In this document: positions 34,143-37,737 of the stretch, one piece after another
Layout: each line of letters opens with the position of its first letter
Position numbering within the stretch: position 1 is the stretch's first letter
Assembly: GCF_000376865.1 (NCBI RefSeq)
Contig: NZ_AQXQ01000012.1
Span: 124,001-188,000, forward strand
From: Thioalkalivibrio sp. ALJ7
GTDB taxonomy: Bacteria > Pseudomonadota > Gammaproteobacteria > Ectothiorhodospirales > Ectothiorhodospiraceae
Direction of reading: 5' to 3'
Length of the DNA stretch: 64,000 bases
The notes under the pieces: model-generated
The model's database searches: none
The model's input: the letters and a program-made list of their open reading frames with translations, nothing else
What the model was told of the DNA's origin: nothing
Made by a program: the position numbers and the translations under genes

Positions 34143-35534
34143 TCAACCCGCCGTCGGCATGTGCGCGCTCAGCAGCCAGGCGGCCATCCCGAAGTACACG
34201 GCCAGGCCGGTGAAATCCTTGATGGTGGTGATGAACGGGTCGGCACCGGGCGCGTGATCCACGCCGATCTTCAGCAACAACCACGGCAGCAGGAAACCAA
34301 GGAGGGAGGCCGTGAAGACGGAGAAGAACAGCGCAACACCGACCACGATGCCCAGCTGCGGGATGTCGTTCGGCGCACCCTGCCAGAAGTAGGCAATCGT
34401 CCCGGCAAGCAAGGCAATAATGACCGCCATGGCCAGACCCACGGCCGCCTCACGCACCATGTGGCCGCGGAAGAAGCGGTTCAGGTTGATATGCCCCAGC
34501 GCAAGCCCGCGGGCAAAGATCGTGGTCGACTGCGTGCCGACGTTACCGCCCATATCCATCACCAGCGGGATAAAGATGGCCAGCGCCACGACCGCGGCCA
34601 AGGTGTCTTCAAAGAAGTCGATCACGCCACCCACGGCCAGACCACCGGCCAGGGTCACCATCAGGAAGGCCAGGCGCACCTTGACCGGATAGCCAATCCC
34701 CCCGGAGGTCAGCTTTTCGGAGCGAACGACATCCTTGTGATGCAGCAGATCCCCAATACCCGCCTTCTTGTAGAAGTCTTCCGAGGTGTCTTCCTCAAGC
34801 ACGTCCATCGCATCATCGATGCGCAACACGCCCACCAGCAGGCCGTCCCCATCCACCACGGGTAGCCAGGGCAGGTCTGTGCGCTGCAGCAGCCGGGCGG
34901 CCTCCACCTTGTCGCTGTCAGGCTTGGTATAGAAGTCTCCCATCTCAAGGAGTTCACCTACTCGCTGTTCCGGCTTGGCACGGAATAGCCGGCCCAGGCG
35001 CACCAGCCCCTTGTAGTGGTGGTCACGATCTGTGATCAGCAGCGCCGCCCCGACATCCTCGGGCATCTTGGAGTTGTCGCGCAGCCGTGCGGTAACCTCG
35101 CCAACGGTCTCCTCCGGGGTCACCCAGAACACCGGGCGGCGCATGAAACGGGCCACGGTGTCCTCGTCCTGACGCCACAGGGTGCGGACCTGGTCACGCT
35201 TGGCGCCCGGGAGGGCGTTCAGGAAATCCTCGGAGCGCCCTTTGCCCACGAGATTCAGGGCACGCGCCAGGGTGTAGGCCGGCAGACGCTGGACCAGCTC
35301 ACGCGCTGCGGGGGCCGGCATCTGCTCGAGCAGGATGGCCTGCTCTTCGTCGTCCATGGCCAGGAAGATGGCGCGACGCTCATTGAAGTCCACGCCTTCC
35401 AGCACGGTCCAGCGCGCGGCCGGTTCCAGTTCGGCGAGACGTTCGGCCGTGATGGCCGGGGCTGGGTGGATCAGCTCAGAACGGGCGCGTTCCAGCTCAC
35501 CCGCGTCAATCATTTTCTGGATGATGTCGTTCAT
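34143..35534 (-). CDS. mgtE: Magnesium transporter MgtE
   Basis: A 463-aa Mg2+ channel. The layout is an N-terminal MgtE_N superhelical domain (about 20-130), paired CBS domains (about 135-260, with RRPVFWVTPEETVGEV and LPVVDGDGLLVGVLRIDDAMDVL), a plug helix, and five C-terminal membrane helices including GGNVGTQSTTIFARG, which lines the pore. MgtE gates closed when cytosolic Mg2+ is high. ATG 35534 has GAGGAG 8 bases upstream. A long leader with a small ORF and a hairpin precedes it, suggesting riboregulation. Confidence 0.95.
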   Translation of the reverse strand: MNDIIQKMIDAGELERARSELIHPAPAITAERLAELEPAARWTVLEGVDFNERRAIFLAMDDEEQAILLEQMPAPAARELVQRLPAYTLARALNLVGKGRSEDFLNALPGAKRDQVRTLWRQDEDTVARFMRRPVFWVTPEETVGEVTARLRDNSKMPEDVGAALLITDRDHHYKGLVRLGRLFRAKPEQRVGELLEMGDFYTKPDSDKVEAARLLQRTDLPWLPVVDGDGLLVGVLRIDDAMDVLEEDTSEDFYKKAGIGDLLHHKDVVRSEKLTSGGIGYPVKVRLAFLMVTLAGGLAVGGVIDFFEDTLAAVVALAIFIPLVMDMGGNVGTQSTTIFARGLALGHINLNRFFRGHMVREAAVGLAMAVIIALLAGTIAYFWQGAPNDIPQLGIVVGVALFFSVFTASLLGFLLPWLLLKIGVDHAPGADPFITTIKDFTGLAVYFGMAAWLLSAHMPTAG

Positions 35535-35585
35535 CAGTAATGCTCCTCGTACGTGTAAGAGTCATACAAAGCACGCAGGGCATTA

Positions 35586-35624
35586 CAAAAAGAAAAAAGA
35601 ATCCCGTGACCGCTGGCGGCGGTC
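35586..35624 (-). promoter_or_regulatory. Candidate attenuator hairpin with T-rich tract in the mgtE leader
   Basis: On the minus strand GACCGC pairs with GCGGTC around a 5-nt loop (35608-35624), followed after about 8 bases by a T-rich tract (CTTTTTTCTTTTTG, plus-strand A-run at 35586-35600). It lies just after the stop of the small leader ORF and about 50 bases before the mgtE start. The spacer between stem and T-tract is longer than in a standard terminator, so the call is tentative. Confidence 0.45.
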
Positions 35625-35626
35625 TT

Positions 35627-35731
35627 TTACAAAACCCCCGTCAGCAAGACGAACACACTTTTACTTTTTCCACTGCCCTGCAGTGTTACTTCGGGCCTAG
35701 ACCCGGGGTCGTCGTCTTCAGGTGCTGGCAT
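35627..35731 (-). CDS. Candidate 34-aa leader peptide upstream of mgtE
   Basis: A small ORF with a perfect AGGAGG five bases before its ATG (35731) and a TAA stop at 35627-35629, about 90 bp before mgtE. The N-terminus is MPAPEDDDPG followed by SRPE, an acidic and proline-rich run, and the C-terminus is hydrophobic (SVFVLLTGVL). In enterobacteria the MgtL leader has an analogous acidic/proline N-terminus; low Mg2+ destabilises ribosomes translating it and this controls mgtA. The same logic could apply here. The protein itself is not conserved with anything I recognise. It may also be a stable small protein or chance. Confidence 0.5.
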   Translation of the reverse strand: MPAPEDDDPGSRPEVTLQGSGKSKSVFVLLTGVL

Positions 35732-36118
35732 GGCAGCCTCCTGTTGGTTGGCTGGTTAAGAGAAAACGGACACGCGCACAGCAATACGCACCCCGCTCCA
35801 CCGGAGACACGCAGAGCGTTCCCCGATTCGGGCAGAGGCGGAATATTATCGAACGGCATGAAACCGAGCGCGGCGCACAAGGGCTGGCGCAGCACGGAGT
35901 TAAGGCTGGGGAGGCGCCCGTCGTAACGGACAGTAGGGGAAAGGACTTGTCACCCCCGGAATCACGCATATCGCTGACACCGGGGATACACCACCGAATT
36001 ACCGGATGGCGGGACCCCGCTGGCAACGATATGCACGCTCGCACTGACCACCGGCCCTACGCTCATGCATCCATCGACAACAGTCCATTGACATACCTCT
36101 GCTACTAAGATGGTCGAA
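35732..36118. other. Long 5' leader of mgtE, otherwise without a gene
   Basis: If the promoter at 36119-36147 is real, this region is transcribed as the first 380 nt of the mgtE leader. It contains a stem CCCCGG/CCGGGG around 20 bases (roughly 35955-35986) and no credible ORF. I did not find the conserved core of an M-box Mg2+ riboswitch, although a diverged structure cannot be excluded by eye. Confidence 0.4.
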
Positions 36119-36147
36119 ATTGTAACTTCGCATATTCAATGGCGCAA
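36119..36147 (-). promoter_or_regulatory. Candidate sigma70 promoter for the mgtE leader
   Basis: On the minus strand TTGCGC (36142-36147), a 17-base spacer and TACAAT (36119-36124) form a good -35/-10 pair in an AT-rich stretch just after the chemoreceptor gene stop. Transcription would start near 36111, giving a leader of about 575 nt before mgtE. A 12-bp palindrome GTAAAATTTTAC lies slightly upstream (36158-36169). Confidence 0.5.
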
Positions 36148-36177
36148 CCCTGAAAAGTAAAATTTTACCCGTCACTT

Positions 36178-37737
36178 TTATCCAAACCTTTGTATCAGCG
36201 CCTTCAGCTCGGCGGCCTGAGCCTGCATGCGGGCGCTGGCATCGCGCGCATGCTCCGAAACCGCACCGGTCTCGCTGGCCACGTCGCGGATCGAGGTCAC
36301 GTTGCGATTAATCTCCTCGGAGACCGCGCTTTGTTCCTCGACGGCCGTGGCGATCTGGGTATTCATCTCGGTGATCTGGGCAACGACCTCGCGGATCGTC
36401 GCCAGCGATTCGCCTGCCGCCTGCGCCTTTTCCACCCCGTCGGCGGCCTGCTCCTGACTGGCCCGCATCGCGGACATTGCCTCGCGGGCGCCACTTTGCA
36501 GGGTCTCGATCATTTTGCGGATGGTCACAGTGGACTCGTCGGTGCGCTGCGACAACGAACGCACCTCGTCCGCCACGACCGCAAAGCCGCGGCCGTGCTC
36601 GCCGGCGCGCGCGGCCTCGATCGCGGCGTTGAGCGCCAGCAGATTGGTCTGCTCGGCGATCTCGCGGATCACGCTCAGAATCTTGTCGATTTCCTCGGTG
36701 CTGGCCTCCAGCTTGCCCAGCTTCTCGGCTGTCGCCTCCACCTCGGCCGCCATGCGGTTGATCACGGATACCGTATCGTTCACGACGTCCTGCCCGGCGC
36801 CGGTCTCCTTCTCGGCGTTGTTGGCAGCCTCGGCGGCGCGGGCGGAGTTGCTCGCCATCTCATGGATGGTCGAGGTCATCTCGTTCATCGCGGTGGCGAC
36901 CTGGTCGATCTCGTTTTGCTGGCGCTCCACGCCAGAGGCGGTCTGGTCCACGCTGCTGGTCATGGATTGGGCATCATCGTTCACCTCGTCGGCCTTGTCC
37001 GCGACCCGGCCCAACACGGTGCGCAGCTTCGCCTCGCCGAACTGCTGCACCAGTTCCAGCGAGGCGCTGTCGTCGCGGCGTCCGGTGTAGATCGACTCCA
37101 TCACCGGGTTGTCGAACTGCTCCCGGGCCCGATTAACCGCCTGGCGGATTCCGGAAGTGAATGCCAGCGACGCGATGCCGCCCGCGGCAAAAATCAATAC
37201 CAGCAGGCCCGCCTGCACGAGTGGCGAGGACACCAGAAACACCGCCGCAAGCGCCAGCAGGAAGCCGACAATCCAGGTCCCGGCGAGGCGCCAGGTAAGG
37301 CCGTGGTACCAGCGCCGGGCGAAGCTCCGACCCCGCAGGATCGCGGCATACACCTTCTCCGCTCGGGCGACATGCTCGCGCTCGGGGATCGCGCGCACCG
37401 ACTCGTAGCCGGTCTTGCGGCCGTGCTCGTAGGCGGGGGTCACGAAGGCGTCCACCCAGTAATGGTCGCCGTCCTTGCGGCGGTTCTTGACGATGCCCAT
37501 CCAGGCCCGGTCGGCCTTCAGGGTCTCCCACATATTCGCGTAGGCAGCCTCGGGCATATCCGGGTGGCGGACGATGTTATGAGCTGAGCCCTCCAACTCC
37601 GACCACTCGAAGCCACTGACATCCACGAAGTCATCATTGGCAAAACGGATACGCCCCTTCTCGTCGGTGGCAGAGATCAGGTCGCCGTGCTGATCAATCG
37701 AGTATTCCGTCTGGGTAACGGGCAGGTTCTTGCGCAT
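36178..37737 (-). CDS. Aer-like methyl-accepting chemotaxis protein with PAS domain
   Basis: A 519-aa receptor. An N-terminal PAS domain (about 20-120, with [14 protein letters not shown] and [10 protein letters not shown] typical of Aer-type FAD-PAS) is followed by two close membrane helices (about 150-190), a HAMP-like region and the signalling tip [23 protein letters not shown]-type sequence (motif [13 protein letters not shown]). Such receptors sense redox or oxygen through FAD in the cytoplasm. AGGA lies upstream of ATG 37737. The motA and motB stator genes are 1.7-3.5 kb away, fitting a motile cell. Confidence 0.93.

Follow-up and report, generated by a model that had tools for sequence, protein, structure and literature searches.

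Does the mgtE gene of Thioalkalivibrio sp. ALJ7 (genome size, 2.7 Mb) carry a leader in which a translated peptide reports on Mg2+? Within the window, which is the whole 64,000-nucleotide stretch of DNA analysed here, 643 nt of intergenic DNA separate mgtE from the chemoreceptor gene on its upstream side, and the nearest named record by MgtE is Thioalkalivibrio sp. ALJT (97% identical). An earlier note on this DNA had described a 34-codon open reading frame (ORF) behind an AGGAGG in this region, with a start reading MPAPEDDDPG. This ORF is present (Table 1); it begins 197 nt upstream of mgtE and encodes the 34-amino-acid peptide MPAPEDDDPGSRPEVTLQGSGKSKSVFVLLTGVL, for which no Pfam match was obtained. 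A short ORF with its own Shine-Dalgarno (SD) sequence thus lies in the leader of a gene that is assigned, by family, to Mg2+ transport. Upstream of it, the candidate promoter TTGCGC-17-TACAAT lies where it had been placed (36147-36119), but calling it good was too strong, as it agrees with the promoter consensus at 8/12 bases and a consensus scan listed no promoter.

Table 1. Positions of the mgtE gene and of observed and candidate leader features in the window
Feature	Position	Strand	Basis
mgtE, 463 aa	34143..35534	-	Domains MgtE_N, CBS and MgtE transporter (sequence, domain match)
SD of mgtE, AGGAG	35543..35547	-	Within predicted SD hairpin; 97.8% of cells paired, covariation not above shuffles
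Anti-SD arm TGCCCTGCGTG, common to the proposed ON and OFF helices	35572..35582	-	Pairing conservation, duplex tests
T-rich tract	35587..35601 (about)	-	Sequence
Hairpin H1, 3' arm	35611..35625	-	Alignment pairing
Leader ORF, 34 codons and stop, MPAPEDDDPGSRPEV...	35627..35731	-	Open reading frame; N-terminus conserved in 18 genomes
Hairpin H1, 5' arm, at ORF end	35632..35646	-	Two pairs changed on both sides
ORF element CACTGCAGGGCA, partner of anti-SD arm (proposed ON helix)	35674..35685	-	11/11 pairs standard in 9/9 leaders, one double change
Codons 2-10, PAPEDDDPG, acidic/proline stretch, proposed drop-off site at low Mg2+	35702..35728	-	Conservation, codon analysis; mechanism by analogy with the MgtL EPDP motif (PMC11282234, available text)
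SD of leader ORF, AGGAGG, 5 nt before ATG	35737..35742	-	Sequence; kept in 9/9 close leaders
Block A, conserved three-hairpin RNA at predicted mRNA 5' end	35954..36103	-	Alignment consensus, folding, covariance model
Candidate -10 hexamer TACAAT, 17-nt spacer	36119..36124	-	Sequence; kept in 7/9 aligned leaders
Candidate -35 hexamer TTGCGC	36142..36147	-	Sequence; TTGCG kept in 7/9 aligned leaders

By DNA similarity, the leader was matched in eight congeners, at 77-94% identity in seven of them and, in genome G013, at 71 and 74% in two separate pieces. The N-termini encoded by these nine close leaders are MPAPEDDDPGS (five), MPAPDDDDPGS, MPAPENDDPGS, MPAPVDDDPGS and MPQDDDDPGSR, where the last, from G013, reflects the in-frame loss of a codon and where one acidic residue has been lost in two leaders (to V in G004 and to N in G001). 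The same DNA search gave no match in the four divergent genomes that it covered (G012, G017, G031 and G036). Leader ORFs were found in a divergent set of nine, defined by MgtE proteins 59-73% identical (except G017, where the gene is cut by a contig end) and including T. sulfidiphilus, T. denitrificans, Ectothiorhodospira magna, E. shaposhnikovii and Halorhodospira abdelmalekii. These ORFs start 177-207 nt before mgtE, four of the nine with TTG, and their peptides begin MPDDPGPEKP, MPDDPGPEQP (two), MPDDPGPANA, MPDEPEPGPL, MPDDPEPEPP (two), MPDEPEPGPS and MPDEPEPEPG, yielding the consensus MP[D/E][D/E]P[E/G]P. Among 47 genomes of the order, the leader peptide occurs in 15/15 of those having this MgtE at E <= 1e-60, and it occurs also in G017 (mgtE at the contig end), in H. 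abdelmalekii (L059) and in a gammaproteobacterial metagenome-assembled genome (L058). Early acidic and proline residues are conserved throughout: each of the 18 peptides has Pro at position 2, Pro again early, and acidic residues with Pro directly after. Retention of the acidic/proline N-terminus in relatives, when checked, therefore came out in favor of the earlier reading.

The leader ORF was also recovered by a search independent of mgtE, using the pattern SD, start, Pro, two GA-initial codons, Pro, G. In the 47 order genomes, this pattern gave 11 matches and its backward control gave three. Seven of the 11 are free-standing ORFs of 33-41 codons, each located 199-207 nt before mgtE, and the other four fall within long ORFs or at their starts. 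When 369 genomes of the class were searched, the pattern matched twice, against seven matches for the backward control, and both matches of the pattern lie within long open frames. In the divergent set, the codons of the N-terminus are constrained: the single-base differences across codons 2-8 comprise eight synonymous, one Asp/Glu and two other changes in frame, while synonymous changes account for 0/10 and 2/11 in the other two frames. For the close set (8/9 leaders, G013 being left out for its gap), one synonymous, one Asp/Glu and two other changes were counted, which is too few to tell.

Conservation of the start, SD and N-terminus would also be expected if the leader ORF encoded a functional small protein expressed together with mgtE. 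We consider this very improbable, as the C-terminal part of the peptide varies between genera and the ORF tail is frameshifted in 2/9 close leaders (G023 and G004), where a 1-nt gap shifts the frame and the stop, with the RNA pairs retained; the lack of a Pfam match likewise speaks against it. The prolines invite another reading, in which the Pro codons would make the peptide a sensor of proline-charged tRNA or of osmotic stress, as with mgtP, which according to the available text of PMC3641672 responds when proline is limiting and under osmotic stress. The two early prolines of all 18 peptides, and the Pro run contained in the Ectothiorhodospira peptide, agree with such a role, but the acidic residues that directly precede Pro are equally universal, and three or four acidic residues stand in a row in 8/9 peptides of the window's clade. 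A proline or osmotic sensor is therefore quite unlikely, if less so than a small protein.

We instead favor, with moderate confidence, the view that a leader peptide translated from the mgtE mRNA acts in the manner of MgtL and MgtQ and is coupled to a Mg2+-dependent switch at the mgtE ribosome site. The conserved and codon-constrained N-terminus, the near-fixed position of the ORF before mgtE, an excess of RNA structure and a set of mutually exclusive conserved pairings, described below, are the parts of this view that have support. Mg2+ as the signal and ribosome drop-off are drawn by analogy from MgtL and MgtQ; translation and the direction of the switch are presumed as well. Like the leader ORF considered here, MgtL of mgtA in E. 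coli and Salmonella is a short ORF with an acidic/proline N-terminus that precedes a Mg2+ importer gene; it is linked to the folding of its leader RNA, as the present ORF would be. According to the available text of PMC11282234, MgtL acts through ribosomes that drop off at an EPDP motif under low Mg2+. The two systems differ in that mgtA encodes a P-type ATPase rather than an MgtE protein, in that EPDP takes the place of [D/E][D/E]P, and in that MgtL works through Rho-dependent termination, whereas a ribosome-site switch is probable here. The genome of Thioalkalivibrio sp. ALJ7 also encodes a protein that scores over the cut-off of a family which we take to be EttA. In E. coli, EttA acts on the acidic residues of MgtL (PMC11282234, available text). 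Closest in logic is mgtQ, which, as far as the text available from PMC8092293 describes it, controls Salmonella mgtB by masking the mgtB ribosome site and whose acidic residues are needed for mgtB translation. As proposed for the present leader, acidic residues there abort translation, and the ribosome site of a transporter gene is masked or freed by alternative stems, although mgtQ is an 8-codon ORF inside an operon, with a different peptide and a P-type ATPase gene as its target.

The RNA from the leader ORF into mgtE was examined for structure by comparison with shuffled sequences. From codon 10 of the ORF to codon 5 of mgtE, 16/18 leaders fold more stably than at least 199/200 shuffles, the exceptions being E. 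magna (equalled or beaten by 4/200) and G065 (by 24/200); together with a peptide conserved across genera, this shows the leader to be more than chance. Two predicted helices would compete for one sequence in this region. In the first, the ORF element pairs with the anti-SD arm (35674-35685 with 35572-35582), and this long-range helix shows one double change, from G-C to A-U, that probably represents a single event because it is confined to two sister genomes. In the second, the anti-SD arm pairs with the mgtE ribosome site, with 97.8% of cells paired across the nine close leaders and no excess of covariation in the SD hairpin over shuffles (386/500 shuffles were as high). These two pairings are mutually exclusive, and both are kept in the nine leaders. 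In duplex tests against shuffles (p <= 0.05), the pairing of anti-SD with SD was significant in 13/18 leaders and that of the ORF with the arm in 12/18; the others fell outside this threshold.

The ingredients shared with MgtL and mgtQ lead us to propose drop-off at codons 5-9, and a switch could then operate as follows. With enough Mg2+, ribosomes would read the whole leader ORF and keep its 3' part unpaired, so that the anti-SD arm would fold onto the mgtE ribosome site and mgtE would be off. When Mg2+ is low, ribosomes would drop off at the acidic/proline N-terminus, the freed 3' part of the ORF would capture the anti-SD arm, and the mgtE ribosome site would open, allowing more of the Mg2+ channel to be made. 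Folding was used to mimic the ribosome in 17 leaders. When a ribosome at the stop codon was represented by leaving only the RNA downstream of it to fold, SD accessibility went down as predicted in 8/17, two of these decreases being 0.05 or less, was unchanged in eight and went up in one (G065). With the ribosome footprint masked in the full leader, it went down in five, was unchanged in 11 and went up in one. No clear general switch emerged from these folds of the 17 leaders; they weakly suggest a direction, which stays a proposal because the accessibility tests are split (8/17 and 5/17).

The earlier note had proposed a candidate attenuator in the leader, with a hairpin and a T-rich tract after the ORF. 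Both of these exist (35611-35646 and about 35587-35601), but no stem abuts the tract, which starts approximately 6 to 10 nt past the candidate stems and is not a canonical terminator, as it does not come directly after a stem. Moreover, a scan of 34500-37000 returned three terminator-like sites where 2.0 were expected, which is near chance; one of the three is a weak 6-pair stem at the ORF end (35637-35653). An intrinsic terminator after the ORF was rejected on these two grounds, so that the attenuator in this sense falls away, and the predicted structures more likely fit control of the mgtE ribosome-binding site than intrinsic termination. A broader form of transcription attenuation, in which reading of the ORF end would allow either an intrinsic or a Rho-dependent terminator before mgtE, as in mgtL-mgtA, faces the same two objections, and we regard it as rather unlikely while granting it more weight than a proline sensor. 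In its favor, inspection by eye finds a GGGAGG...CCTCCC hairpin after the ORF in 8/9 divergent leaders, where T. sulfidiphilus has GGGGGC...GCCCCC instead. In most such leaders, a C-rich sequence at or just past the ORF end could pair with the 5' arm of the hairpin. The window also holds, approximately 410 nt upstream of mgtE, a C-rich stretch that ranks among the top 1.3% of 78-nt windows and could suit Rho.

In the 5' part of the leader, separate from the proposed ribosome-site switch, a 150-nt three-hairpin RNA, block A, is conserved. Changes on both sides were seen for 5/54 of its pairs. Four of the nine sequences were folded singly, with z of -2.6 to -3.3; three match the consensus, and the G013 stretch, which is 6 nt short, folds differently. 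A covariance model of block A found strong matches in 9/47 order genomes, always at this mgtE leader, and its other matches (E of 0.017 to 0.8) were taken as chance. Block A was not found in seven other peptide-bearing genomes of the order (G012, G017, G031, G036, G060, G064 and G065) by a search whose filters can lose weak matches, and because of this the leader peptide appears to be the wider part of the two. Block A may act as an aptamer, contribute to stability or regulate the leader ORF.

No known riboswitch of Rfam was found in the window, and no Rfam family matches the leader, where a search at E <= 10 gave four hits far below cut-off; a known riboswitch was rejected on this ground. The M-box (ykoK) Mg2+ riboswitch resembles the present case in the control of MgtE-type genes by Mg2+ through a leader, but it had no covariance-model match in the window, the leader or nine relative loci. 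The only match over cut-off in the nine relative loci lies downstream of mgtE in L058 (4665-4833) and is a yybP-ykoY Mn2+ riboswitch (63 bits).

The earlier note knew of no description of leader-peptide sensing for an MgtE-type channel, which is half right. In the literature searched, and among the matches listed, neither a leader-peptide reading at mgtE nor the peptide in other genera was found; however, an mgtE motif RNA of Thioalkalivibrio has been published (PMC11109978). According to the available text, this motif, SRC-65-1, has 32 unique representatives, occurs only in Thioalkalivibrio and is a strong riboswitch candidate with no known ligand, and its SD and AUG lie at the base of P4, a large and imperfect stem (PMC11109978, 2024). 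Set against that text, the present leader likewise lies upstream of mgtE in Thioalkalivibrio and places SD and AUG in a large stem, and the two, compared by text description only, are probably the same RNA. They differ in presentation, as the published account treats SRC-65-1 as a riboswitch candidate confined to Thioalkalivibrio and the available text of PMC11109978 mentions no leader ORF for it.

The element could accordingly be a true metabolite or metal riboswitch, with block A as the aptamer and the ORF incidental or secondary. The grading in the available text of PMC11109978 and the strong occurrence of block A at this leader only, in 9/47 genomes, speak for such a riboswitch, but the seven order genomes in which the peptide was found and block A was not, the codon constraint on the ORF N-terminus in the divergent set and the missing Rfam match make it unlikely, less so than a proline sensor and more so than attenuation. 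Returning to the leader peptide, we tentatively raise a fuller possibility, to which we give somewhat less than an even chance. The published candidate without a ligand would be, at its core, a ribosome-based Mg2+ sensor, whose leader peptide is common to MgtE-using soda-lake bacteria across genera and to which Thioalkalivibrio would add a separate folded 5' RNA, maybe a real aptamer, giving two tiers of sensing in one mRNA. Soda lakes are the known home of Thioalkalivibrio. They are described, in the available text of PMC4766312, as being without major divalent cations. If the leader peptide acts in this way, Mg2+ sensing by a nascent acidic peptide would reach beyond enterobacterial P-type ATPases to include the MgtE channel family and bacteria of soda lakes poor in divalent cations, which would suggest that sensing has drawn on the Mg2+ dependence of the ribosome on more than one occasion. 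The orphan riboswitch candidate also gains a concrete rival mechanism that is testable by mutation of the start codon.

Among 80 mgtE loci, the leader peptide was present at the 13 with near-full-length gammaproteobacterial orthologues (identity of at least 59%), where L056 and L057 were read through the same contigs as L014 and L015. By the filters used, none of the remaining 67 loci, with shorter or more distant MgtE, has such a peptide, and several of these loci end near the gene start; one of them, L070, holds a single weak candidate ORF that is unconserved. The same peptide was not seen in 18 loci of other MgtE paralogues and was not found before the C10 mgtE pair of the ALJ7 genome, where one unrelated Pro-rich ORF is present. 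T. denitrificans (G036) has a second, partial mgtE match (L047; C1 111632-112390; 57% identity, residues 80-333), with neither the leader peptide nor the pattern at that copy. In a sample of 398 genomes of the phylum, this MgtE was found at E <= 1e-100 in the ALJ7 genome only, and the leader DNA had no match in plasmids.

Some other features of these loci deserve mention. Many of the L060-L094 loci (from soda-lake Rhodobacteraceae, Billgrantia and others) align to this MgtE only from approximately residue 105-155, so their proteins may lack the N domain; no such leader peptide was seen before these genes. In L013, L141, L014 and L015, the leader ORF directly follows the end of another ORF, whose product resembles, by eye, a stand-alone MgtE N-domain protein. 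Finally, two Anaerolineae loci (L098 and L099) have, approximately 230 nt before mgtE, a different acid-rich short ORF containing DASSPSALTGRR; it is present in 2/12 of the Chloroflexi loci scanned and is perhaps another leader peptide.
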